Shown in pieces: positions 35,271 through 46,227 of a DNA stretch of 64,000 bases (positions within the stretch are counted from its first letter, which is position 1; every line of letters starts with the position of its first letter). The stretch comes from Neokomagataea tanensis (GTDB taxonomy: Bacteria > Pseudomonadota > Alphaproteobacteria > Acetobacterales > Acetobacteraceae), in assembly GCF_006542335.1 (NCBI RefSeq), contig NZ_CP032485.1, forward strand, positions 405,501 to 469,500, read 5' to 3'. Below the pieces are notes generated by a model. It saw only the letters and a list, made by a program, of their open reading frames with translations. It had not been told where the DNA came from and searched no databases. The translations under genes were made by a program, and so were the position numbers.

Positions 35271-35930
35271 TCAGTCTTTACTCTCTGTCCCATAATATAA
35301 TTTGCCGATTTCAATGGCCGGGCGCCCTTGGCTACGCCGGTGCATGTTTGTGTCCCGCAAAGAATAGGCACAGCCACAATATTCCTGCTGGTAGAACTGC
35401 TCCTGCTTGCTGATTTCAATCATCCGCGCGGCACCACCGCCCTTGCGCCAATTAAAATCCCAATAGGACAAACCTTCATATGGAGTGACGGCACGCTGCC
35501 CACAATCATTAATCTGGGCCATGTTCTTCCAGCGCGAAATACCAAGCGAACTGGTCATAACAGGGAAGCCGTTCTCATGTGCGTATAAAGCAGTGCGCTC
35601 AAAACGCATATCAAAGCACATGGTGCAACGCGTCCCGCGTTCTGGCTCCCACTCCATACCCTTCGCCCGGGCGAACCAATTATCCCGGTCGTAATCAGCA
35701 TCAATAAATGGAACATTATGCTTTTCAGCGAACCGAACATTTTCGTCCTTACGCAGCAGGTATTCCCGCTCAGGATGAATATTCGGATTGTAGAAAAAAA
35801 TCGTGTAATCAATACCGGATGCCGTCATCGCTTCCATCACCTCCCCGGAACAGGGGGCGCAGCATGAATGCAGCAACACTTTCTTCTGCCCATCCGGTGG
35901 CGTGAGAAGAGGACGGCTATTTTTAGTCAT
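35271..35930 (-). CDS. queH: Epoxyqueuosine reductase QueH
   Basis: 219 residues of the QueH (former DUF208) family, which performs the last step of queuosine tRNA modification. Conserved cysteines are visible: adjacent Cys23-Cys24 with Cys27 in [12 protein letters not shown], Cys102 and Cys105 in RCTMCFDM, and Cys185/Cys187 in EYCGCAYS. They make the iron-sulfur cluster and the neighbouring redox/metal site in this family. [11 protein letters not shown] is also typical. Non-homologous to QueG. No other queuosine gene is near. Confidence 0.95.
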
Positions 35931-36298: not shown

Positions 36299-37240
36299 TT
36301 ACTTGGAATCACGCCGTGCATGACGGTATCGCCGCACCAATCGTGGCAAACACAATAAGGGATGCTTCTGCTCAAATGACGATAACGCCAGATCAATACC
36401 CGTATGCCGCTGTATCTTCCACGCCAGATAGGTAGCACCATCCTTGAAGGTAAACGCTGCCTTGATCAAACGTAATACATTCCGCACTTTGCCAAAGCGC
36501 TTTATGGCGTGCCAATGCTTCACAGCCCGTCGCGTCTGCTTTTCAGAGAGCACGACAGAGTAACTGTCATTCTCCCGAGCAAAAGCTAAACCCGCACGCT
36601 GCCACGCTAACGGTAAAATCGTAGTAAAGCGGCCTTCGGCTCCTTGGAGAAGACTTTTCCCACGCCCAGACGCCTCTACCCTTAGTTCTGAGCCATAAGT
36701 CTGGGCGAATAGCGCATCCCAAAAGGCTGTAGCAGGCTTACTTCCTATGTCAGCGCCAAAAATCCCGCTCCAGAAAGCAGCTGTCGTGACACAACGGGCA
36801 ATCAACGTCAGGATATAGTCCGCAGCCTCAGCGTCTCGTACCCAAACCAGCCGCACTGGCTGACAAAAACGCGCCCATAAGGTTGTATCAGCTGAACGCG
36901 GCCCTGTTCGCTCTGCAAATTGCTTACGCGACAGCACAGCAACTTTAGCCCGGTAAGCTTGCCCCTCGTAACTATACTCCGCGTAAAACACATTTGGCGG
37001 CAGAAAATGATTTGCCAGGCGGGCACACATGCCTCCCGGCACATCACGCCCCGTTTCCGTCACCACATAAAAATCCAAAATACCATCCGGGTCCGCTTTA
37101 CGCAGCATAGACCCGTAGAACACGACACCCAAAGGTGCCGTCGACATATCCTTAACCAGATGTGCCGCAAACGCCCGTACAGCTGGAGCCACCGGCGTTA
37201 CTAATTCCGTGACGAGGTATTTTTCCAAACGATCAAGCAT
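36299..37240 (-). CDS. Tam41-like phosphatidate cytidylyltransferase (predicted)
   Basis: 313 residues from the ATG at 37240, which overlaps the stop of the lipid-kinase gene by 8 bases. An N-terminal nucleotidyltransferase fold is visible: FYGSMLRKADPDGILDFYVV, where Gly43-Ser44 and Asp56 fit the GS...D pattern. Farther on RAKVAVLSRKQF ... LWARFCQPVRLVWVRD corresponds in order and spacing to the segment K..V.S...F....W..LxGRxxxPV.....D of mitochondrial Tam41, which makes CDP-diacylglycerol from CTP and phosphatidic acid. The match is my reading, not a search. Its neighbour makes phosphatidic acid. No transmembrane helix, as in peripheral Tam41. A longer start (37339) would add a poorly conserved extension. 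Confidence 0.6.
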   Translation of the reverse strand: MLDRLEKYLVTELVTPVAPAVRAFAAHLVKDMSTAPLGVVFYGSMLRKADPDGILDFYVVTETGRDVPGGMCARLANHFLPPNVFYAEYSYEGQAYRAKVAVLSRKQFAERTGPRSADTTLWARFCQPVRLVWVRDAEAADYILTLIARCVTTAAFWSGIFGADIGSKPATAFWDALFAQTYGSELRVEASGRGKSLLQGAEGRFTTILPLAWQRAGLAFARENDSYSVVLSEKQTRRAVKHWHAIKRFGKVRNVLRLIKAAFTFKDGATYLAWKIQRHTGIDLALSSFEQKHPLLCLPRLVRRYRHARRDSK

Positions 37241-38270
37241 GGAGGAACCTAAATGCCGGGCCACTCTCCAGCAGCAACTGCCGCGATGCCGTCGGGGTAA
37301 AGACCTCACCATCCAGCACAAAGTCACTCGTTGTTTCAAGCATCATACGATGGGTTCTGCCGCTATCGTAGTCTGGGTGGCGGCGCAGCCAACGGGGCGC
37401 ACGGCCTGTCAAAAGAGCGGCAGCAGCCCGGGCCAGCGAGCCCGGCTGCGCACTTACATCCAAGTATCGTACGCCGCGTGCACCCGGCTCAGCGTCCCAA
37501 AACGGCCAGATACCACGCGATAATTGCGACAAACCTGTTGCCAAGAACATAAAGCTTTCGCCGCCGTAGGAGCGCTCTTCAGTCATAATTTTTAGAGGGT
37601 CACCCGCAAGCCAACGATCACGGCTCCGACGAAACACTAGACTGCCCACCGCACCAAGGACCGTCACCCCTACAGCCAAATCATGCGGCGCGAACCTGAC
37701 GATGGATGGAGCATGCGCAATACGAACAGCTCTAGCATACCCCGCACAGCCACCAAATAAGCCAAGGACAGGCATACGGTCGCTCTCCGGCCAAGTTAGC
37801 CGAATAGGCGTTCTAACGCTTGAGCGCATCGCACCTTGGCGCAGCCTGCGCAGCGCCTGAAAACCCCGCAGACCAAACCCAACATCATTCGCAATCAGAT
37901 TGGTATTACCCGACGCAAACACGGCGATATCTGGCAAATCATCTTCGGGGTAAACGCGGGCAATGGCTGTCAGCGCAGTGCTCACCGTCCCATCTCCGCC
38001 ATCTATAGCAATCGTCCGCACCCCACGGTCACGTAATACGCGCAGCCGGTCCGCCGTACCTTCGCGGCTATCGGACGGAATAAAATTCTCTCCCAAGAGA
38101 GATTCGGCAGCAGCCGCAAAGCCTGCGCCGCTACGATTATTACGGCGACTACGGGCGTTGTGTATCAGGGCAAAGCGCACAGAGCGGGACAATCTTCTGT
38201 CTAAGAAAAAACGGGATACGCCCCAGAAAATCTGGACTAAGCGGTATTTTTCGTGAACGCTTAAGACCAT
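37233..38270 (-). CDS. Diacylglycerol/lipid kinase family protein
   Basis: About 345 residues from the ATG at 38270; a GTG at 38315 would add 15 residues. FALIHNARSRRNNRSG is the first strand and phosphate loop of the DAGK catalytic domain, and IAIDGGDGTVSTAL (GGDGT at about 91-95) is its ATP motif. FASGNTNLIANDVG replaces the usual G(T)GNDLA loop. The C-terminal lobe ends with a beta-sandwich typical of YegS/DgkB. It probably phosphorylates diacylglycerol to phosphatidic acid. It overlaps the Tam41-like gene in the same operon, which supports a lipid role. Confidence 0.82.
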   Translation of the reverse strand: MVLSVHEKYRLVQIFWGVSRFFLDRRLSRSVRFALIHNARSRRNNRSGAGFAAAAESLLGENFIPSDSREGTADRLRVLRDRGVRTIAIDGGDGTVSTALTAIARVYPEDDLPDIAVFASGNTNLIANDVGFGLRGFQALRRLRQGAMRSSVRTPIRLTWPESDRMPVLGLFGGCAGYARAVRIAHAPSIVRFAPHDLAVGVTVLGAVGSLVFRRSRDRWLAGDPLKIMTEERSYGGESFMFLATGLSQLSRGIWPFWDAEPGARGVRYLDVSAQPGSLARAAAALLTGRAPRWLRRHPDYDSGRTHRMMLETTSDFVLDGEVFTPTASRQLLLESGPAFRFLHA

Positions 38271-38370
38271 TCCTCGAAAAGGCGGTATAGGGTTTCCACT
38301 GGCGGGGTCTAGCACAGCACAGCCCGTAGGACTACACGCTGAGTTACGAACGGAAGAAACCTAAGCCCTG

Positions 38371-39342
38371 ATGACAGAACGCCACAGCACTATGCCCCAG
38401 TCTGACACACAGCAAAGCCCGGCTACAGACATACCTGCCAGCCAGCACACTCAAAACCAGTCTTGTGTCAGAATCGCGCATCTGTCGGACCCACACCTCC
38501 CCCCTCCACCGGTCCCTTGGTCCCAAGCCTTTAACAAACGCGGCCTCAGCCTTCTTTCATGGCACAAACACCGTCGGCACGTTCATCAGGCCCCGCTCTG
38601 CGATGCCTTGGTGCAAGACATCGCCCGCACTGAAGTTGACGCCATTATGGTAAGCGGTGACCTAACAAACTTTGGTACCCCCGCAGAGTTTACTAAAGCC
38701 GCTCAATGGCTGGCTGCTCTGCCTGCACCCGCATTTGTCATTCCCGGCAACCATGACGCTATGGTCCGCCAACCCGAAGCCACAGGCCGCAGCAAATGGA
38801 TAGATTGGGCGGCTCCGCAATATCCTTATTGCCACGAACTCAACGGCGTAGCGATTATCGGCGTTAACTCAGGCGTACCGACATTGCCTTTCATGGCAAG
38901 CGGACGTGTCGGAAAGCAGCAACGCCAGCGTTTGGCGACTCTGCTCAAACGCACGCACGATGCAGGACTGTGTCGGGTCGTAATGATCCACCACCCTCCG
39001 TGCAAAGGACTCGTGCCATGGCGCAAGGCCCTGCACGACATGAAGGCCGTTACCGATGTTCTCCGCGCAGAAGGGGCAGAAATCGTCCTGCACGGACATT
39101 CACATAACGCGACACTGACCCATATTCCCAACTCCACGATACCACTTCTCGGGGTCGCATCCGCTTCCCTACAGTCCGCGAAGCCCCACCGCCAAGCATG
39201 CTGGAACGAACTGACCATTACGCCTCACGCACAAACTGCGCATAAACACTGGACCATCACACTCCAGCGCCATTGGCCCTCATTTAGCGGCCCCCATAGC
39301 GGGGTAGTAGAGAGCGCATCTTGGGAGCGTGGATACAAATGA
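38371..39342 (+). CDS. Calcineurin-like phosphoesterase (cytoplasmic)
   Basis: 323 residues with the full metallophosphatase motif series: IAHLSDPHL (metal 1), IMVSGDLTNFG, VIPGNHDAM, MIHHPPCK and LHGHSHN. No signal peptide; the first 45 residues are a polar lead. The stop TGA overlaps the lptF start by four bases (ATGA), so the three genes phosphoesterase-lptF-lptG are translated together. By motif layout it resembles the LpxH/3',5'-cyclic nucleotide phosphodiesterase group, but substrate cannot be read. Its coupling to LptF suggests an envelope-lipid role; inference. Confidence 0.85.
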   Translation: MTERHSTMPQSDTQQSPATDIPASQHTQNQSCVRIAHLSDPHLPPPPVPWSQAFNKRGLSLLSWHKHRRHVHQAPLCDALVQDIARTEVDAIMVSGDLTNFGTPAEFTKAAQWLAALPAPAFVIPGNHDAMVRQPEATGRSKWIDWAAPQYPYCHELNGVAIIGVNSGVPTLPFMASGRVGKQQRQRLATLLKRTHDAGLCRVVMIHHPPCKGLVPWRKALHDMKAVTDVLRAEGAEIVLHGHSHNATLTHIPNSTIPLLGVASASLQSAKPHRQACWNELTITPHAQTAHKHWTITLQRHWPSFSGPHSGVVESASWERGYK

Positions 39343-40487
39343 CGCCCAAACTCCATACGCTCGACCGCTACCTCCTACGGCAAATGGCACCTCCATTTAT
39401 CGTCGCGCTCGGGGCCATGCTTGTAGCGCTCCTACTTGAGCGCCTGCTCACTCTTTTCGATTATCTGGCCTCCGCAGGAAGCTCCCTCTCCACCTGTATC
39501 AAACTCCTGACGGACCTCCTGCCGCATTATTTTGGCATCGCGCTGCCGGCCTCGCTTTGCATTGCGGTCTTCCTGACCGTCCGCAGCATGAGCGACCATA
39601 ACGAAATTGACGCCATCAGAGCGGCCCGCATCTCCCTCATTCGCCTGAGCCGTCCTTTCATGTTTGTCGGCTGCGGTATCGGCCTCGCCAGTGTTTTGCT
39701 CTACGGCTATATTCAGCCTGTTGCACGCTATGACTACCGTGCCGGTTTTTACGTCGCCGAACACACAGGATGGGCCCCTCACCTTCAGGCCGGGATGTTC
39801 GCATCCACCTCCAGTAAAGCCATGATGACAGCCGATAAAGTCCGTCATGGCGGCTCCACACTCGGCCATATCTTCATCCGCGAGATTGCAGATAACGGCA
39901 CTATTCACCTGATTACAGCTGAACGCGGCCTTCTGACCGTCTCACAAAAGCATCACCGTACAGAACTAGACCTTTGGGACGGACAAATCGTCGACATTCC
40001 ACTGCAAACCAGTGAGCATTCAGCACCGCATGTCACGCATTTTGGTCATGCTGTGCGCATTATCGAACGCCAAAACCACGATACAAACTTCCGCTCACGC
40101 GGCGCAGATGAACGTGAACTTACCCTGTTTGAACTTGCCAAAGATCTGCGCTATGGCGTGCACGGTATTGAGTACCGCACCCTGCGCGCTGAGTTTGACT
40201 TCCGCATGGCGCGCGCACTTGCCATACCGTTCATTCCGCCACTAGCCGTTGCGCTCGCCATAGGCGGCAAACGCAGGCGCTCAATCTGGGGCCTTCTGGC
40301 CGTTTCAGGCATCCTTGTCGGCTTTGACCAGATATTAATGTTCGGTCATTCCTTGGCTTCTTTGGGCAAACTCCCCATTTGGTTAGCCATCTGGACCCCT
40401 GAAGCACTATTCTGTGCTGCATGTCTGGCAACACTACTTCGCCGCTCCCGTGGCTCTTGGCGCCGACGGCTCCTGCACAAAGCCTAA
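39339..40487 (+). CDS. lptF: LPS export ABC transporter permease LptF
   Basis: 382 residues from ATG 39339 in the ATGA overlap. N-terminal LHTLDRYLLRQMAPPFIVAL opens the first of six membrane helices (first three between residues about 17 and 115, last three after about 285), with the large periplasmic beta-jellyroll between. With LptG and LptB it extracts lipopolysaccharide from the inner membrane. The jellyroll here is of normal size. Starts the lptF-lptG pair, 36 bases apart. Confidence 0.9.
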   Translation: MTPKLHTLDRYLLRQMAPPFIVALGAMLVALLLERLLTLFDYLASAGSSLSTCIKLLTDLLPHYFGIALPASLCIAVFLTVRSMSDHNEIDAIRAARISLIRLSRPFMFVGCGIGLASVLLYGYIQPVARYDYRAGFYVAEHTGWAPHLQAGMFASTSSKAMMTADKVRHGGSTLGHIFIREIADNGTIHLITAERGLLTVSQKHHRTELDLWDGQIVDIPLQTSEHSAPHVTHFGHAVRIIERQNHDTNFRSRGADERELTLFELAKDLRYGVHGIEYRTLRAEFDFRMARALAIPFIPPLAVALAIGGKRRRSIWGLLAVSGILVGFDQILMFGHSLASLGKLPIWLAIWTPEALFCAACLATLLRRSRGSWRRRLLHKA

Positions 40488-40523: not shown

Positions 40524-41639
40524 ATGAACCGCTCTGCTCACTCCTCAAAAATGCCCCAGAGGCATCGCGCTGTTCTCATTCGTCATCTGAACAAAGCCCT
40601 GTTGGGGCGCGTCATGCTCTGCGGGGCAGTTCTTGTGGCCCTCATGGAATTACTGGCGCTTTTGGAGAAGACGACACCGATTTTAAACCGTCATCTCGGC
40701 GTACGCGGCTTAGCCATTTTTTCTGCTCTGCACCTTCCAGCGCTCAGCATCGACATACTCCCCTTAGCTTTCCTGATCGGGGCGCTCTTCTTTCTTACGC
40801 AACTCGCCTTATCAAGCGAGATGTCTGCTCTGCGCGCTGCAGGTTTATCGACTATCGGGCTTTACCGTTTACTGCTCCCAACAGTGCTGTTCGTGGGCTT
40901 TGCGGGTATGATTGGGCAATACTGGGTTGTGCCTGCCAGCGAAGGTGCGCTGAAACAATGGTGGAATGCCACAACCCCCATTAATGAACATGATGACAGC
41001 GACCAGCCTCTTTGGTTTCGTATGGGCGGTACGCTCATCCGCATTGAGCATATCTCCAACAGCGGCCAAACCTTAAGCGACATAACCCGCTATGACCGTG
41101 ACGCCCACGGACAGCTGACAAGCACTCAGCATGCGGACAGCCTGAATTACGCTGGGGATCACTGGGAAGAAACCGGCAACCTCACACTACAGCTTAACCC
41201 TGATCACAGCGCAGCCCACCGCATTCCGGGTGGAGCCCTTGCTCTCCCCGTATCCCCGCGCACCATTATACGCCTGACACAGGCTCAGCCTTTTCTGACA
41301 CCGGGAGAAATTTTAGACGCCCTCCACAATGGCGCCCCAGCGAGTCTCCCCCGCCCTACATACCGTATGGCGCTTTTTTCACCCCTGATCTTACCAATAG
41401 ATATGGCAACAATGCTTCTATTAGCGCTGCCAGTGATCTATATCCCACCAAGAACTGGGCTCAGAACCCCACTTCCAGTCTATGTGCTGGCAGCAGGTCT
41501 AGCCCTTGTAATCCTGCAGGGCCTGATAAACGCGTTGGGCAATGCCGGAACGCTACCGGCAGCACTGGCCGTTTTGTCAGGACCACTACCGGGCATTTTA
41601 TTCGGTATCACCTGGGTACTGCGGATGGAGGAAAAATAA
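40524..41639 (+). CDS. lptG: LPS export ABC transporter permease LptG
   Basis: 371 residues, same YjgP/YjgQ fold as LptF: three N-terminal helices (LCGAVLVALMELLALLE, LSIDILPLAFLIGALFFL and TVLFVGFAGMIGQYWVV), a periplasmic jellyroll and three C-terminal helices ending in LFGITWVLRMEEK. It pairs with LptF in the LptB2FG complex. The third gene in line, a fatty-acid hydroxylase, starts 2 bases after its stop, so lipopolysaccharide export and that enzyme share an operon. Confidence 0.88.
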   Translation: MNRSAHSSKMPQRHRAVLIRHLNKALLGRVMLCGAVLVALMELLALLEKTTPILNRHLGVRGLAIFSALHLPALSIDILPLAFLIGALFFLTQLALSSEMSALRAAGLSTIGLYRLLLPTVLFVGFAGMIGQYWVVPASEGALKQWWNATTPINEHDDSDQPLWFRMGGTLIRIEHISNSGQTLSDITRYDRDAHGQLTSTQHADSLNYAGDHWEETGNLTLQLNPDHSAAHRIPGGALALPVSPRTIIRLTQAQPFLTPGEILDALHNGAPASLPRPTYRMALFSPLILPIDMATMLLLALPVIYIPPRTGLRTPLPVYVLAAGLALVILQGLINALGNAGTLPAALAVLSGPLPGILFGITWVLRMEEK

Positions 41640-41641
41640 AT

Positions 41642-42457
41642 ATGACTGCACCCCGTTCAGGCTTACGCTTTTGGCGTAATGCAGCATCTTTGCGCACAGG
41701 CCGAAGCTTCGACTTGGGTAAGATGACCCTTCCACAACTTTGGATGGCCTATCTCACCTACCCAAGCATTCTGCTCTATTTCGCCCTGATTATCGCCTCC
41801 GCAGTTTTGACCGTTCACTTCTGGAGCGGCACCTTGCGCACGGTGCTGCCCATTCCCGCAGTCATCGCCATTTACCCAACCGCGTGGTATCTGATCCACC
41901 GCTTCGTCCTGCACAGTAAGTGGCTTTATAAAAGCCGCTGGACGTCTTCCACCTGGAAGCGCATTCACTTTGATCACCACCAAGACCCACACCTGTTGGA
42001 TGTGCTGTTTGGCTCCCCGCTCAACACCGTACCCACCATGGCAATCATCACCATGCCCGTCGGTGCGCTCATTGGCGGATTGAGTGGTATGTTTGCAGCC
42101 TTTACGACCTCGCTGGTTATGACCTGCATCTATGAATTTTTTCACTGCATACAGCACTTGGCTTACAAGCCCCGCTGGAAGTGGGTCGCGCATATCAAGC
42201 AACTGCACGTCCTCCACCACTTCCACCACGAAGACGGCAATTACGGTATAACCAATTACCTTCCGGACCGGATCTTCGGCAGCTTTTACCGAGACGCCCG
42301 CGAGCGCCCGCGCTCCCAGCATGTTTTCAACCTCGGCTACACCGTGGATGAAGCCTCGCGCTACCCTTGGGTCATGTCTCTAACAGGCTCCCCCCCAAAA
42401 GACCGACCCGACGGCGCGCGCCCAAATAAAAAAAATACGCCAGAAGCCGCCGCGTGA
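41642..42457 (+). CDS. Fatty-acid hydroxylase / sterol-desaturase family membrane protein
   Basis: 271 residues with two or three membrane pairs and the di-iron His boxes of the superfamily: HRFVLH (about 87-92), HFDHHQDPH (about 108-116), HCIQHL, and LHVLHHFHHEDGNYG near residue 195. Oxidises an acyl chain, sterol or hopanoid in the membrane. In acetic acid bacteria 2-hydroxy fatty acids and sphingolipids are known, so 2-hydroxylation of a ceramide or lipid A acyl chain is a fair but unproven guess. The start follows lptG by 2 bases; the stop overlaps the next gene start (GTGA). Confidence 0.82.
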   Translation: MTAPRSGLRFWRNAASLRTGRSFDLGKMTLPQLWMAYLTYPSILLYFALIIASAVLTVHFWSGTLRTVLPIPAVIAIYPTAWYLIHRFVLHSKWLYKSRWTSSTWKRIHFDHHQDPHLLDVLFGSPLNTVPTMAIITMPVGALIGGLSGMFAAFTTSLVMTCIYEFFHCIQHLAYKPRWKWVAHIKQLHVLHHFHHEDGNYGITNYLPDRIFGSFYRDARERPRSQHVFNLGYTVDEASRYPWVMSLTGSPPKDRPDGARPNKKNTPEAAA

Positions 42458-43239
42458 GTGCCCTCCCTGTCCTCATTCTAGCGGGCTCGCGTGATGGCGC
42501 CCAAGACCCTCTTGCCCGCTTGGGAGGCGTCTCTCACAAGGCCCTGCTTCCGGTAGCAGGACAAGCCATGCTGTCGCGCGTCCTCGCCGCAGTGAACGAA
42601 ACTCCGGCAATAAGCAGCGTTACCGTCAGCATCGAGGAACCTGAATTAATTCAGACACTTTTGCATGAGCACTCCACTCACGCGCAACCAGCCTCGGTCC
42701 TGCAATCTCAACCCTCCCCAAGTGAGAGCGTTGCTGACGCTTTGCAGGCACTCGGCACGCCATGTCTCGTCACAACCGCAGATCACGCCCTGCTTAAAAA
42801 AGAATGGATAGAAGAATTTCTGGAATACACGCAGGGATGTGACGTGGCCGCAGCCATTGCTGTGCGCCCCGTCATTGAGCGCGATGTTCCCGGCACAAAA
42901 CGAACATATATCCGCCTCTCCGATATGCATTTCTCAGGCTGTAATCTCTTTTGGCTTGGCTCCCCCAAAGCCCAAAACGTCATAACACTTTGGAACCGCC
43001 TTCAGCAGGATCGGAAAAAACCCCTGCGTATGGCGCGGACCTTGGGGTGGAGCGTACTGCTGCGCGCACTGTTCCGCAAACTCGACAGCTATACGCTCTG
43101 CAAACGGATAGAAACGCTCACCGGCGCAAAAGTACGGTTGGTCCCCCTCTCCGACGGTTGTGCAGCAGTAGACGTCGATAAACCCGTTGACCTCACCTTA
43201 GTGGAAGCGCTCTTATCAGCGCCCCCAACACAGCACTAG
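42454..43239 (+). CDS. NTP-transferase (MobA-like) domain protein
   Basis: 261 residues starting at GTG in a four-base GTGA overlap with the hydroxylase stop. N-terminal PVLILAGSRDGAQDPLARLGGVSHKALLPVAGQAML is a Rossmann-type nucleotide-binding entry of the NTP_transf_3 class, with the loop Lys (SHKALLPV) and, near 104, VTTADHALL, a metal-binding acid. C-terminal half is unlike MobA. It may attach a nucleotide to a sugar, alcohol or cofactor precursor; the cluster suggests a lipid head group, by context alone. The GT4 gene follows 15 bases later. Confidence 0.7.
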   Translation: MSALPVLILAGSRDGAQDPLARLGGVSHKALLPVAGQAMLSRVLAAVNETPAISSVTVSIEEPELIQTLLHEHSTHAQPASVLQSQPSPSESVADALQALGTPCLVTTADHALLKKEWIEEFLEYTQGCDVAAAIAVRPVIERDVPGTKRTYIRLSDMHFSGCNLFWLGSPKAQNVITLWNRLQQDRKKPLRMARTLGWSVLLRALFRKLDSYTLCKRIETLTGAKVRLVPLSDGCAAVDVDKPVDLTLVEALLSAPPTQH

Positions 43240-43254
43240 GCACACTAAGCCAAA

Positions 43255-44346
43255 ATGAAGATTGCTTACGTCATCAACTCCCTTGAATGCGGCGGGGCAC
43301 AGAGCCCTATCCCGGACATCGTCCACCTCATTCAAGAGCGCGGAGGTGACGTAACCGTCTTTGGATTAGAGGAACGCGATGGCCTTGCTATTCCGCTGCT
43401 TCGACGGGCGGGCATTCCTGTGCGCTTACGTACAGGCCGCAAAAAAGATCACATCAATGCATATCTCTGGCTAAAGCGCGAACTCAAAGCTTTTAAACCA
43501 GACGTAGTATGGACCTCACTGACGCGCGCTACCCTGCTAGGCCAAATTGTTGCCCGCCAACTCAAGGTTCCCACAGTACACTGGCAGCATTCCGCCCGCC
43601 TCAAAACGGCTAATGCGTGGCTCTTACGTCTCTTTTGCCGTGAAACGCTCCTCTGGGTCGCTGACTCTGAAACCGTTGCCCGTTTCGCCAAAAAACGCCT
43701 GAAGCTTGGCAATAATATCCTGTGTTGGCCCATTTTTCGTGCCCCACCTGATGCCCCGACTGCACGCCTCTGGCAAAAAGGCGAGATCATACAGATTGGC
43801 TCTCTTGGCCGCCTCCACAGCGTTAAAGGCTATGATGTCCTCTGCGACGCATTAGCCCTATTGCGTTCCACAAAAGAGCTCCCCCCTTTCCATATGATTT
43901 TTGCAGGAGACGGCCCGGAACGCATCGCACTGGAAGAACGTGCCCGGCGCCTTAACCTACCCGTTTCCTTCTACGGTCATTGCGAGAAGCCACTGGATTT
44001 TTTATCCACTTTGCACCTCTACCTACAAACATCACATTGGGAAGGCTTATGTGTCGCAGCCCACGAAGCGATGGCCTGCGCACTACCAATCATCACCACC
44101 CCCGCTGGCGAAATTCCGCGCAGTGTTGTTCCCGGTGAATCCGGTCTGATTGTTCCCTTTAACGATGCCGGTGCGCTAGCCGCAGCCTTGACGAGCCTCT
44201 TACGCAAACCCGCATGCCTTGGTGAAATGGGCGTACGCTCGCGCAAAATGGTTATGCAGCGCTTTGGCCCGGAAGCTTTTGCTCAATACGGTCACGCCGT
44301 TCTTGATGCTATTCCGGGTTTCAACGCTTCAAAAAACGACGCCTGA
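43255..44346 (+). CDS. GT4-family glycosyltransferase
   Basis: 363 residues, GT-B fold. MKIAYVINSLECGGAQ is the typical acceptor-domain opening, HWQHSARL follows, and the donor domain begins at IGSLGRLHSVKGYDVLCDAL (about 181-200) with FAGDGPER and the E-x7-E motif in HWEGLCVAAHEAMACALPII. No signal peptide. The last 26 bases overlap the end of the convergent beta-propeller gene. Last of the lptF-lptG-hydroxylase-NTP-transferase run; it may glycosylate a lipid. Confidence 0.85.
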   Translation: MKIAYVINSLECGGAQSPIPDIVHLIQERGGDVTVFGLEERDGLAIPLLRRAGIPVRLRTGRKKDHINAYLWLKRELKAFKPDVVWTSLTRATLLGQIVARQLKVPTVHWQHSARLKTANAWLLRLFCRETLLWVADSETVARFAKKRLKLGNNILCWPIFRAPPDAPTARLWQKGEIIQIGSLGRLHSVKGYDVLCDALALLRSTKELPPFHMIFAGDGPERIALEERARRLNLPVSFYGHCEKPLDFLSTLHLYLQTSHWEGLCVAAHEAMACALPIITTPAGEIPRSVVPGESGLIVPFNDAGALAAALTSLLRKPACLGEMGVRSRKMVMQRFGPEAFAQYGHAVLDAIPGFNASKNDA

Positions 44347-45211
44347 AGTTCATCAAATCACGCCGTGGCCCGTACCCAATACGTTTAACATCAACGAGCG
44401 TGACATCCCCAGAAGCCGACAGTGTATGCATACCATCTGGATAAGCATGTTTTAGGGTGGATGGTATGTTCAAATGCTCCTGAGGGGTCACCCGCACCTC
44501 ACCGCGCTCTAGTCCATCAATGTGGAGTAAACGGATATTTTTCCCGTACGTCCCGCGACAGTCCTGAACCGGCAACACAACTCCGGACCGGGTCACGCAA
44601 GGTGTCCCGCCGGGGCGTGCTCCAGCCCGATCTCTGTGTATAATACCCCGGTCCGTCCATGGCCCGTACAAGCTTGGCGCGGTCGAAAGCGCGAGCACAC
44701 TTTGCCGCTCTTCTTTTGTCCCCGGCGGATTCCAAAACAGCCACCACTGTCCATGCATAAAAAATGGGGTGGCATCCACCGCCGCAGCCGGAAAATCAAA
44801 TTCGGGCACACTTTCCCAACCCAGCGGGAAATTAGTCGCTCGGTACAGCGTCAAACGTCCGGAACCACTAGCCTCCGGCAGCATGTAAAACACACCTTCA
44901 TGTTTGAACACGAATGGATAAGATAAGTGCCACGGCTTTTCCAAAGCTTGGTGGCGGCGCTGCAAAACGAACTGCTGATCATAAATCAGAACATCGATAA
45001 CGCCTTTAGCGCTTCGATAATCGAAAGCTTCTGCAAAAACATACAATAAATCGCCGTGCCACATGCCGAATGGATCCGCCAGAAAGCGATGATCCCCTTC
45101 ATCCGGCAATAACGTGACCGAAACGCCATCCCAATTTTTCTGCTCCAAAAGCTCTGTGAGCGGCTCATGAAGGATGGCACTGCGCCAGTGATCCGTACGG
45201 AAAAAAGGCAT
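44321..45211 (-). CDS. GINT1_N-like beta-propeller protein
   Basis: 296 residues reading as a GH43/GH32-like five-bladed propeller. Signature stretches: FLADPFGMWHGDLLYVFAEAF, HLSYPFVFKHEGVFYMLPEA, LTLYRATNFP, DATPFFMHGQWWLFW and LSTAPSLYGPW. The same pattern is the N-terminal domain (GINT1_N) of plant glucosamine inositolphosphorylceramide transferase and of bacterial formyltransferase-linked proteins. In plants a GT64 domain follows; here the domain stands alone. It may bind or modify glycolipid sugar. No signal peptide. Its tail overlaps the GT4 gene tail-to-tail by 26 bases. The call is by pattern recognition. Confidence 0.68.
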   Translation of the reverse strand: MPFFRTDHWRSAILHEPLTELLEQKNWDGVSVTLLPDEGDHRFLADPFGMWHGDLLYVFAEAFDYRSAKGVIDVLIYDQQFVLQRRHQALEKPWHLSYPFVFKHEGVFYMLPEASGSGRLTLYRATNFPLGWESVPEFDFPAAAVDATPFFMHGQWWLFWNPPGTKEERQSVLALSTAPSLYGPWTDRGIIHRDRAGARPGGTPCVTRSGVVLPVQDCRGTYGKNIRLLHIDGLERGEVRVTPQEHLNIPSTLKHAYPDGMHTLSASGDVTLVDVKRIGYGPRRDLMNFRRRFLKR

Positions 45212-45426: not shown

Positions 45427-46227
45427 ATGACTAATCCCGTCGAACATGACCCAATCGCCCTGCGCTTGGAGGCAGCCCGCTCAATCGTACGCGATGCTGC
45501 AGCCCTAGCCCTTAAAATGCGCCCCGCACCTGGCGGCCCAAGTGGGACCATGAAAGGACGACAGGACTATCTTACAGAAGCTGACGGAGCCGTTGAAGCT
45601 TTAGTCAGCCAACGCATCCAAGCTCTGTTCCCTGAAGATGGTTTTCAAGGCGAAGAAGGCGGCGTAACACGCCAAGGCAAATACCGCTGGGTCGTAGACC
45701 CAATCGACGGCACATCAAACTTCTCCCGCGGGCGCGACCGCTGGTGCGTTTCCCTCGGCCTTTTGGAAGGCGACACACCCGTTGCCGGCATTATCGATGC
45801 CCCTGCCCTTGGAGAAATTTTCACCGCACAACGCGGCAAAGGCGCATTCCTAAACGGCAAACCCATTAAAGCGGCCCCTACGCAAGACCCAGCGGAAGCC
45901 ATGATCGAAATGGGCTGGTCCTGCCGGGTACCACAACCCGTTTTTGAAGAAAAAATTAGCGCAATTGTCGGCCTCGGCGCGATGCCACGCTCAGGTGGCT
46001 CAGGCGCGCTTGCACTTGCAGATGTCGCATGTGGCCGCAGCGACGGATACCTCGAAATCGTTATCCGCTTGTGGGACGTAGCGGCGGCGCTGGTTCTCCT
46101 CGAAGAAGCAGGCGCACGTGTTTCTCCCTTCCTTGAAACCGGCGGCTTAACAGGCGGCGCCACCATTCTGGCCACAGCCCCTAATATTGCAGAAGCCGTC
46201 TCTCACGCCGTAAACGTACCGCTTTAA
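45427..46227 (+). CDS. Inositol monophosphatase family protein
   Basis: 266 residues. Metal and catalytic sites are intact: GEEGG (Glu76, Glu77), VVDPIDGTSNF (Asp91, Asp94, Gly95, Thr96) and IRLWDVAAAL near the C-terminus. Strong ribosome site AAGGAG 6 bases before the ATG. Family members dephosphorylate inositol-1-phosphate, histidinol phosphate or 3'-phosphoadenosine 5'-phosphate; the sequence does not decide. Its position next to a GINT1-like gene hints at inositol, as inference. Gap 45212-45426 (215 bases) contains no gene and should hold promoters for both. Confidence 0.88.
   Translation: MTNPVEHDPIALRLEAARSIVRDAAALALKMRPAPGGPSGTMKGRQDYLTEADGAVEALVSQRIQALFPEDGFQGEEGGVTRQGKYRWVVDPIDGTSNFSRGRDRWCVSLGLLEGDTPVAGIIDAPALGEIFTAQRGKGAFLNGKPIKAAPTQDPAEAMIEMGWSCRVPQPVFEEKISAIVGLGAMPRSGGSGALALADVACGRSDGYLEIVIRLWDVAAALVLLEEAGARVSPFLETGGLTGGATILATAPNIAEAVSHAVNVPL

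Follow-up and report, generated by a model that had tools for sequence, protein, structure and literature searches.

What lipid might be activated by a nucleotidyltransferase whose gene overlaps that of a lipid kinase in an acetic acid bacterium? The question arises from a stretch of 64,000 nucleotides (hereafter the window) of Neokomagataea tanensis (contig NZ_CP032485.1, positions 405,501 to 469,500; genome of 2.58 Mb, G000 in our sample). Two open reading frames (ORFs) lie there on the minus strand: upstream, a lipid kinase gene of the DAGK_cat type (37233..38270; 345 amino acids from the ATG at 38270, the longest frame in the ORF list starting at a GTG at 38315 and giving 360), and downstream, a gene encoding a Tam41-like nucleotidyltransferase (36299..37240; ATG start, 313 amino acids). 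The kinase stop and the Tam41-like start share 8 bases, read from the sequence (37233..37240), so that both ORFs and their overlap are present as described in a first-pass annotation of this DNA. We consider it fairly probable that the 36299-37240 product is a soluble cytidylyltransferase that uses CTP, belongs to a divergent bacterial branch of Tam41-like proteins and is probably associated with the membrane, and that it acts as a CTP:ceramide-1-phosphate cytidylyltransferase making CDP-ceramide in phosphosphingolipid synthesis.

Used as a single query against Pfam, NCBIfam and the sequences of the Protein Data Bank (PDB), the Tam41-like protein was assigned to no family, and its closest relative among the matches listed comes from Neokomagataea anthophila (72% identity). 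The AlphaFold2 model (mean predicted local distance difference test score of 91.6) has as its top Foldseek matches in the PDB the Tam41 structures 7ecd (E 2.1e-08) and 6ig4 (E 7.3e-08), and VIA-align likewise ranks Tam41 as the best match. The Tam41 fold, a nucleotidyltransferase domain plus a winged-helix domain, is present in the model and is shared with 7ecd over model residues 15-265, at 11-12% identity with Tam41 in the structural alignment. The remaining eight Foldseek matches at E <=0.001 are all enzymes of the aminoglycoside nucleotidyltransferase (ANT) type, at 6.8e-05 and weaker. That the protein is instead a nucleotidyltransferase of a different family, for example of the ANT or MNT antitoxin type, is very improbable.

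Eleven residues (G43, S44, D56, K99, W122, R124, Q127, P128, E185, R187 and E189) are invariant across the 88 rows of the alignment, which includes the window protein twice, with two starts. The Tam41-like patterns noticed in the first-pass annotation are therefore not due to chance. The nucleotidyltransferase signature YGS...DFY (codons of residues 42-58, 37067..37117, minus strand) shows Y42, G43, S44 and D56 in 88/88 rows and Y58 in 86/88. Of the two acidic positions mapped, D56 is kept and the second is occupied by Y58; for Tam41/Mmp37, retention of a single one of the three acidic residues of the nucleotidyltransferase fold is reported (PMC11646218). K99 (codon 36944..36946, minus strand; K in 88/88) is the proposed counterpart of the Lys in Tam41's KYGV stretch, and DTTLWARFCQP (residues 118-128, 36857..36889, minus strand; W122, R124, Q127 and P128 in 88/88, D118 in 56/88), with its R-F-x-P stretch, that of Tam41's LAGRFQKP, the register of both being taken from a weak phmmer match between a homologue and Schizosaccharomyces pombe Tam41 (E 1.6, with an unrelated chain ahead at 0.27). 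The model also has a C-terminal helix (residues 298-313, 36302..36349, minus strand) that is basic and amphipathic by charge and hydrophobic moment; Tam41 likewise has a basic amphipathic C-terminus, and the helix may be a membrane anchor.

The kinase (360-residue frame) matches Pfam DAGK_cat PF00781 at 3.6e-08 (33.5 bits, cut-off 23.6), which confirms its earlier assignment as a lipid kinase. GGDG is present in 22/22 aligned kinases, and the printed sequence contains one Cys, hence no CxxxCxxC. The fold search gave the YegS/DgkB/SphK1 type, a level at which diacylglycerol (DAG) and ceramide kinases are indistinguishable. We then compared the distribution of the two genes in 289 alphaproteobacterial genomes. 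The Tam41-like family was detected in 34 of them at E 1e-10, the window's genome included, and the kinase profile in 35 at E 1e-15, that is in all 34 Tam41-like positives plus one genome (G043) with a weak partial match (7.6e-16). The Fisher value for this co-occurrence (1.7e-43) takes no account of relatedness or of how the kinases were chosen, and was not relied on. The two genes are adjacent in 31 positive genomes, including that of the window, and lie on separate contigs in the remaining three of the 34 (G123, G186, G227). G093 has an additional kinase gene of this family (C40:48652-49596), its pair being on another contig (C45). Furthermore, in 80/80 acetic acid bacterial loci (the best 80 of 511 confirmed matches, by title all Acetobacteraceae), both genes of the pair share a strand and their match ends are separated by -4 to 173 bases, an agreement favoured both by the origin of the profile and by the relatedness of the genomes.

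The link with ceramide synthesis comes from the serine palmitoyltransferase gene (spt). Of the 80 acetic acid bacterial loci, 76 carry an spt gene, with 66-82% identity to that of the window's genome, in convergent orientation relative to the Tam41-like gene; 119-1702 bases separate the match ends (<=1 kb in 73 loci), and acpR and aasR share the locus. This finding strengthens the CDP-ceramide proposal and lowers the probability of cytidine diphosphate-diacylglycerol (CDP-DAG) as product. An adjoining spt is missing from four loci, namely L077 and three from Neokomagataea (L006, L007 and L019, of which L019 ends immediately behind the match). The window's genome has an intact aasR-acpR-spt operon at C1:1602023-1605382, with an spt scoring 559 bits on the NCBIfam serine palmitoyltransferase model (cut-off 500). 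As this operon is intact but 1.16 Mb away from the pair, whereas it adjoins it in 76/80 loci, the two look to have been parted in the window's lineage, a lineage-specific separation.

In the class sample, loci of about 20 kb each, several ended by contig ends, were taken from 30 positive genomes, those left of the 34 when G000, G027, G163 and G227 are set aside. The families around the pair, clustered by blastp and named by Pfam/NCBIfam, comprise serine palmitoyltransferase, acyl carrier protein, acyl-AMP ligase, epimerase, CDP-alcohol transferase, LptF/LptG, fatty acid hydroxylase and metallophosphoesterase. Per 30 loci, we counted the kinase in 27, LptF2 and LptG2 in 25 each, the hydroxylase in 22, acpR in 21, spt in 20, aasR and cerR in 19 each, the metallophosphoesterase in 18, a CC_1153-like gene in 16 and a CpgA-like gene in 13. 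In the window and stretches of its own genome (315 kb, overlaps counted, mainly around aminotransferase hits), cerS, CpgA-like and CpgD-type genes gave no match and cerR-like matches were weak; cerS, cerR and CpgD-type genes were not sought in the remaining genome. Matches to a cerS-like family (F7) in 56/80 acetic acid bacterial loci fall on the hydroxylase/LptG stretch; they were taken as an artefact of overlong ORFs and not counted.

These clusters can be compared with the phosphosphingolipid genes of Caulobacter, for which a 2022 study reportedly introduced the names CpgABC. On a plasmid of Roseomonas haemaphysalidis, the row runs acpR, spt, Tam41-like gene, kinase, CDP-alcohol transferase, metallophosphoesterase, DUF2141, HIT, LptF, LptG, GNAT protein, nucleotidyltransferase and a phosphocholine-cytidylyltransferase-like gene. 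It matches the order CC_1163-CC_1152 as given in a section of PMC11324152, strands and CC_1157 being outside the comparison, apart from the far-end genes: the acyl-AMP ligase and reductase are at the cluster's far end, unlike in Caulobacter. In such relatives the Tam41-like gene holds the place of cpgC (CC_1161, ccna_01219), flanked by spt on one side and the ceramide kinase gene on the other; the window's genome differs from them in having spt 1.16 Mb from the Tam41-like gene. The kinase, with DAGK_cat and GGDG and as partner of the Tam41-like gene, holds the position of CpgB (CC_1160). The 3' end of C. crescentus cpgB, known from a primer in PMC10331486, coincides, at 2 mismatches, with that of the kinase gene adjoining the Tam41-like gene in one genome (G080). 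At <=3 mismatches, it has three matches in the 289 genomes, two of them (3 mismatches) in genomes without the pair, and at <=1 mismatch it has none in 14 genomes of G080's family and order or in 12 of another family. The likeness of the window kinase to CpgB is one of domain, motif and position, and we propose that it may be a CpgB-like ceramide kinase. Caulobacter was not among the best 120 matches in two further protein searches. The Tam41-like protein is probably the equivalent of CpgC. In the passages of PMC11324152 (PLoS Pathogens 2024) that deal with CC_1161, this protein carries an InterPro domain pointing to CDP-DAG synthase, and a nucleoside diphosphate-activated ceramide is suggested; the Tam41 fold found here agrees with that suggestion. 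What is already in print is thus a suggestion for one gene, to which we add the fold and the conserved residues, the pairing with the kinase in a class sample, the spt linkage and the acetic acid bacterial version.

According to our proposal, ceramide would be converted to ceramide-1-phosphate, onto which the Tam41-like enzyme would transfer CMP from CTP, giving CDP-ceramide and pyrophosphate. A head group would then be joined to CDP-ceramide as the activated lipid, and the phosphosphingolipid would reach the outer membrane via the adjoining second LptF/LptG pair. The fold, the conserved residues, the pairing, the kinase co-occurrence, the spt linkage in relatives and the spt of the window's genome were computed; next to them, we infer CTP as donor, ceramide-1-phosphate as acceptor, CDP-ceramide as product and an exporter role for LptF2/LptG2. 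If CDP-ceramide is made, bacterial phosphosphingolipids and glycerophospholipids would share one CDP-lipid logic, the former relying on a soluble enzyme akin to one of the mitochondrial cardiolipin pathway. With its two genes, the pair makes a compact system. It is also conceivable, though we put it forward only tentatively, that the widespread bacterial Tam41-like family makes CDP-ceramide and that PssA or PgsA would use it in acetic acid bacteria; one transferase set (PssA/PgsA) would then serve both glycerophospholipids and sphingolipids.

CDP-DAG is a general cellular need. The first-pass annotation had proposed it as the product of the pair, the kinase converting DAG to phosphatidate (PA) and the Tam41-like enzyme PA to CDP-DAG, as a salvage beside CdsA. 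The pair on which this route was built is real, and the closest structures are indeed CDP-DAG synthases, a bacterial Tam41 being reported to make CDP-DAG (PMC11646218). The genome distribution fits less well, as the gene is present in merely 34/289 alphaproteobacteria despite the general requirement for CDP-DAG, and it is linked to spt in 76/80 acetic acid bacterial and 20/30 other loci. Moreover, the window's genome does carry cdsA elsewhere, as a single PF01148 match (C1:1267389-1268096) that is not the Tam41-like ORF. CdsA and the window protein would have in common a CTP:lipid-phosphate reaction, predicted for the latter, but CdsA is an integral membrane protein of a different fold (according to part of PMC7018664), whereas the window protein is predicted to be soluble. 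The PgsA- and PssA-type enzymes, the sole CDP-alcohol transferases found, use CDP-DAG, and CpgB, a demonstrated ceramide kinase, phosphorylates DAG in vitro at a level comparable to ceramide; in the same excerpts of PMC10331486, however, PA is unchanged on cpgB deletion in Caulobacter. CDP-DAG appears unlikely as the product. Another chemistry within a phosphosphingolipid role seems unlikely too: the enzyme could transfer glycerate directly to ceramide-1-phosphate, as once proposed for CpgC, or nucleotidylate a head-group precursor. No paper on CDP-ceramide was found in the open-access literature searched, and the CpgC step in adding a phosphate-linked head group to bacterial ceramide was still described as an unidentified mechanism in 2025, CpgC being genetically required for ceramide phosphoglycerate (sections of PMC12275187; likewise PMC13228409). 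Nevertheless, the Tam41 fold and conserved residues argue against this chemistry, and direct glycerate transfer is called energetically 'not very favourable' in a passage of PMC11324152.

Several points weigh against CDP-ceramide as the product. No report of enzymatic activity was found for the Tam41-like family, and the equivalence with CpgC derives from synteny and the reported domain. The kinase profile was built from 22 kinases adjoining the Tam41-like gene, which biases it toward co-occurrence. The spt gene is away from the pair in Neokomagataea-type loci (the window, L006 and L007) and was not seen in 10/30 class-sample loci, some of them ended by contig ends. Tam41-like homologues also occur in Thermodesulfobacteriota and Binatia. 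PF01066 retrieves from the window's genome two CDP-alcohol transferases, of the PgsA and PssA types alone (NCBIfam PgsA 134 bits, cut-off 109; PssA 98 bits, below the cut-off of 107), and neither a CpgA-like nor a CpgD-type gene was detected in any of the 80 acetic acid bacterial loci, 34 being at least 20 kb long and over half shorter. Either an ordinary transferase takes CDP-ceramide, or another family acts, or the product is CDP-DAG. Finally, the window protein has no match to PF09139 up to E 10 (gathering score 24 bits) and is therefore classed as Tam41-like and not as a PF09139 member. In the family, 0/45 rows of alignment A1 match PF09139 at E 1, 1/17 of A3 matches at 0.00014, and 2/9 single members scanned match, both below the cut-off. 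PF09139 is precomputed on 8 homologues, all over the cut-off, among the best 120 listed in one search, and on none of the 120 listed in each of two others; PDB sequence searches with the window protein and with profiles A1 and A3 missed Tam41. The PF09139 model was also silent in all 14 control genomes, so a genome without a PF09139 match says little.

The first-pass annotation had regarded Tam41 as a mitochondrial enzyme, unusual in bacteria, yet bacterial Tam41 was already known (PMC11646218; Firmicutes structure 7ecd). By VIA-align, 7ecd is nearer to the model than mitochondrial Tam41 (6ig2/6ig4), and the 398 Pseudomonadota genomes gave one sub-threshold PF09139 match, itself a member of the Tam41-like family. 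No tie to the origin of mitochondrial Tam41 was found on these grounds, no tree with eukaryotic Tam41 having been built. The window protein differs from Tam41 in lying below the Pfam threshold, in having a lipid kinase gene as its partner and in the association with sphingolipid genes in relatives.

The plasmid regions inspected show the Tam41-like gene annotated as a hypothetical protein in 4/4 cases. Phosphosphingolipid-type clusters lie on plasmids of Pseudomonas sp. JS425 (L166) and Diaphorobacter sp. JS3051 (L167), the latter a conjugative plasmid of IncP type with two CDP-alcohol transferase genes; horizontal spread of these two clusters is possible. A Qipengyuania plasmid carries the pair alone (L168:10955-12879), other sphingolipid genes not being recognisable by annotation within 12 kb.

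In the window, the pair is followed downstream by a QueH gene (35271-35930, minus strand; 0/80 matches in the acetic acid bacterial loci). On the other side, a row of plus-strand genes starts with a divergent metallophosphoesterase gene (38371..39342; PF00149, 80/80 loci), CC_1158-like by position. Next come a second LptF (LptF2-like; 39321..40487), a putative sphingolipid exporter subunit, and a second LptG (LptG2-like; 40524..41639), each matching PF03739 and present in 79/80 loci; they are two of the four LptF/LptG matches in the genome. A fatty acid hydroxylase family protein, possibly a ceramide hydroxylase (41642..42457; PF04116; 79/80 loci and 22/30 other loci), precedes a CC_1153-like MobA-like nucleotidyltransferase (42454..43239; PF12804; 77/80 loci). 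The MobA-like protein was rejected as CpgD, as it shares 48% identity with a Roseomonas 'nucleotidyltransferase family protein' versus 24% over 101 amino acids (E 0.012) with the Roseomonas CpgD-type protein. Further on, an ORF on the minus strand (44321-45211) matches GINT1_N, the N-terminal domain of glucosamine inositolphosphorylceramide transferase 1, at 7.7e-32; it overlaps a GT4 gene by 26 bases, has matches in 41/80 loci, and is possibly a head-group enzyme of the phosphosphingolipid. An inositol monophosphatase-family gene also lies near the cluster (45427-46227, plus strand), with matches in 67/80 loci.
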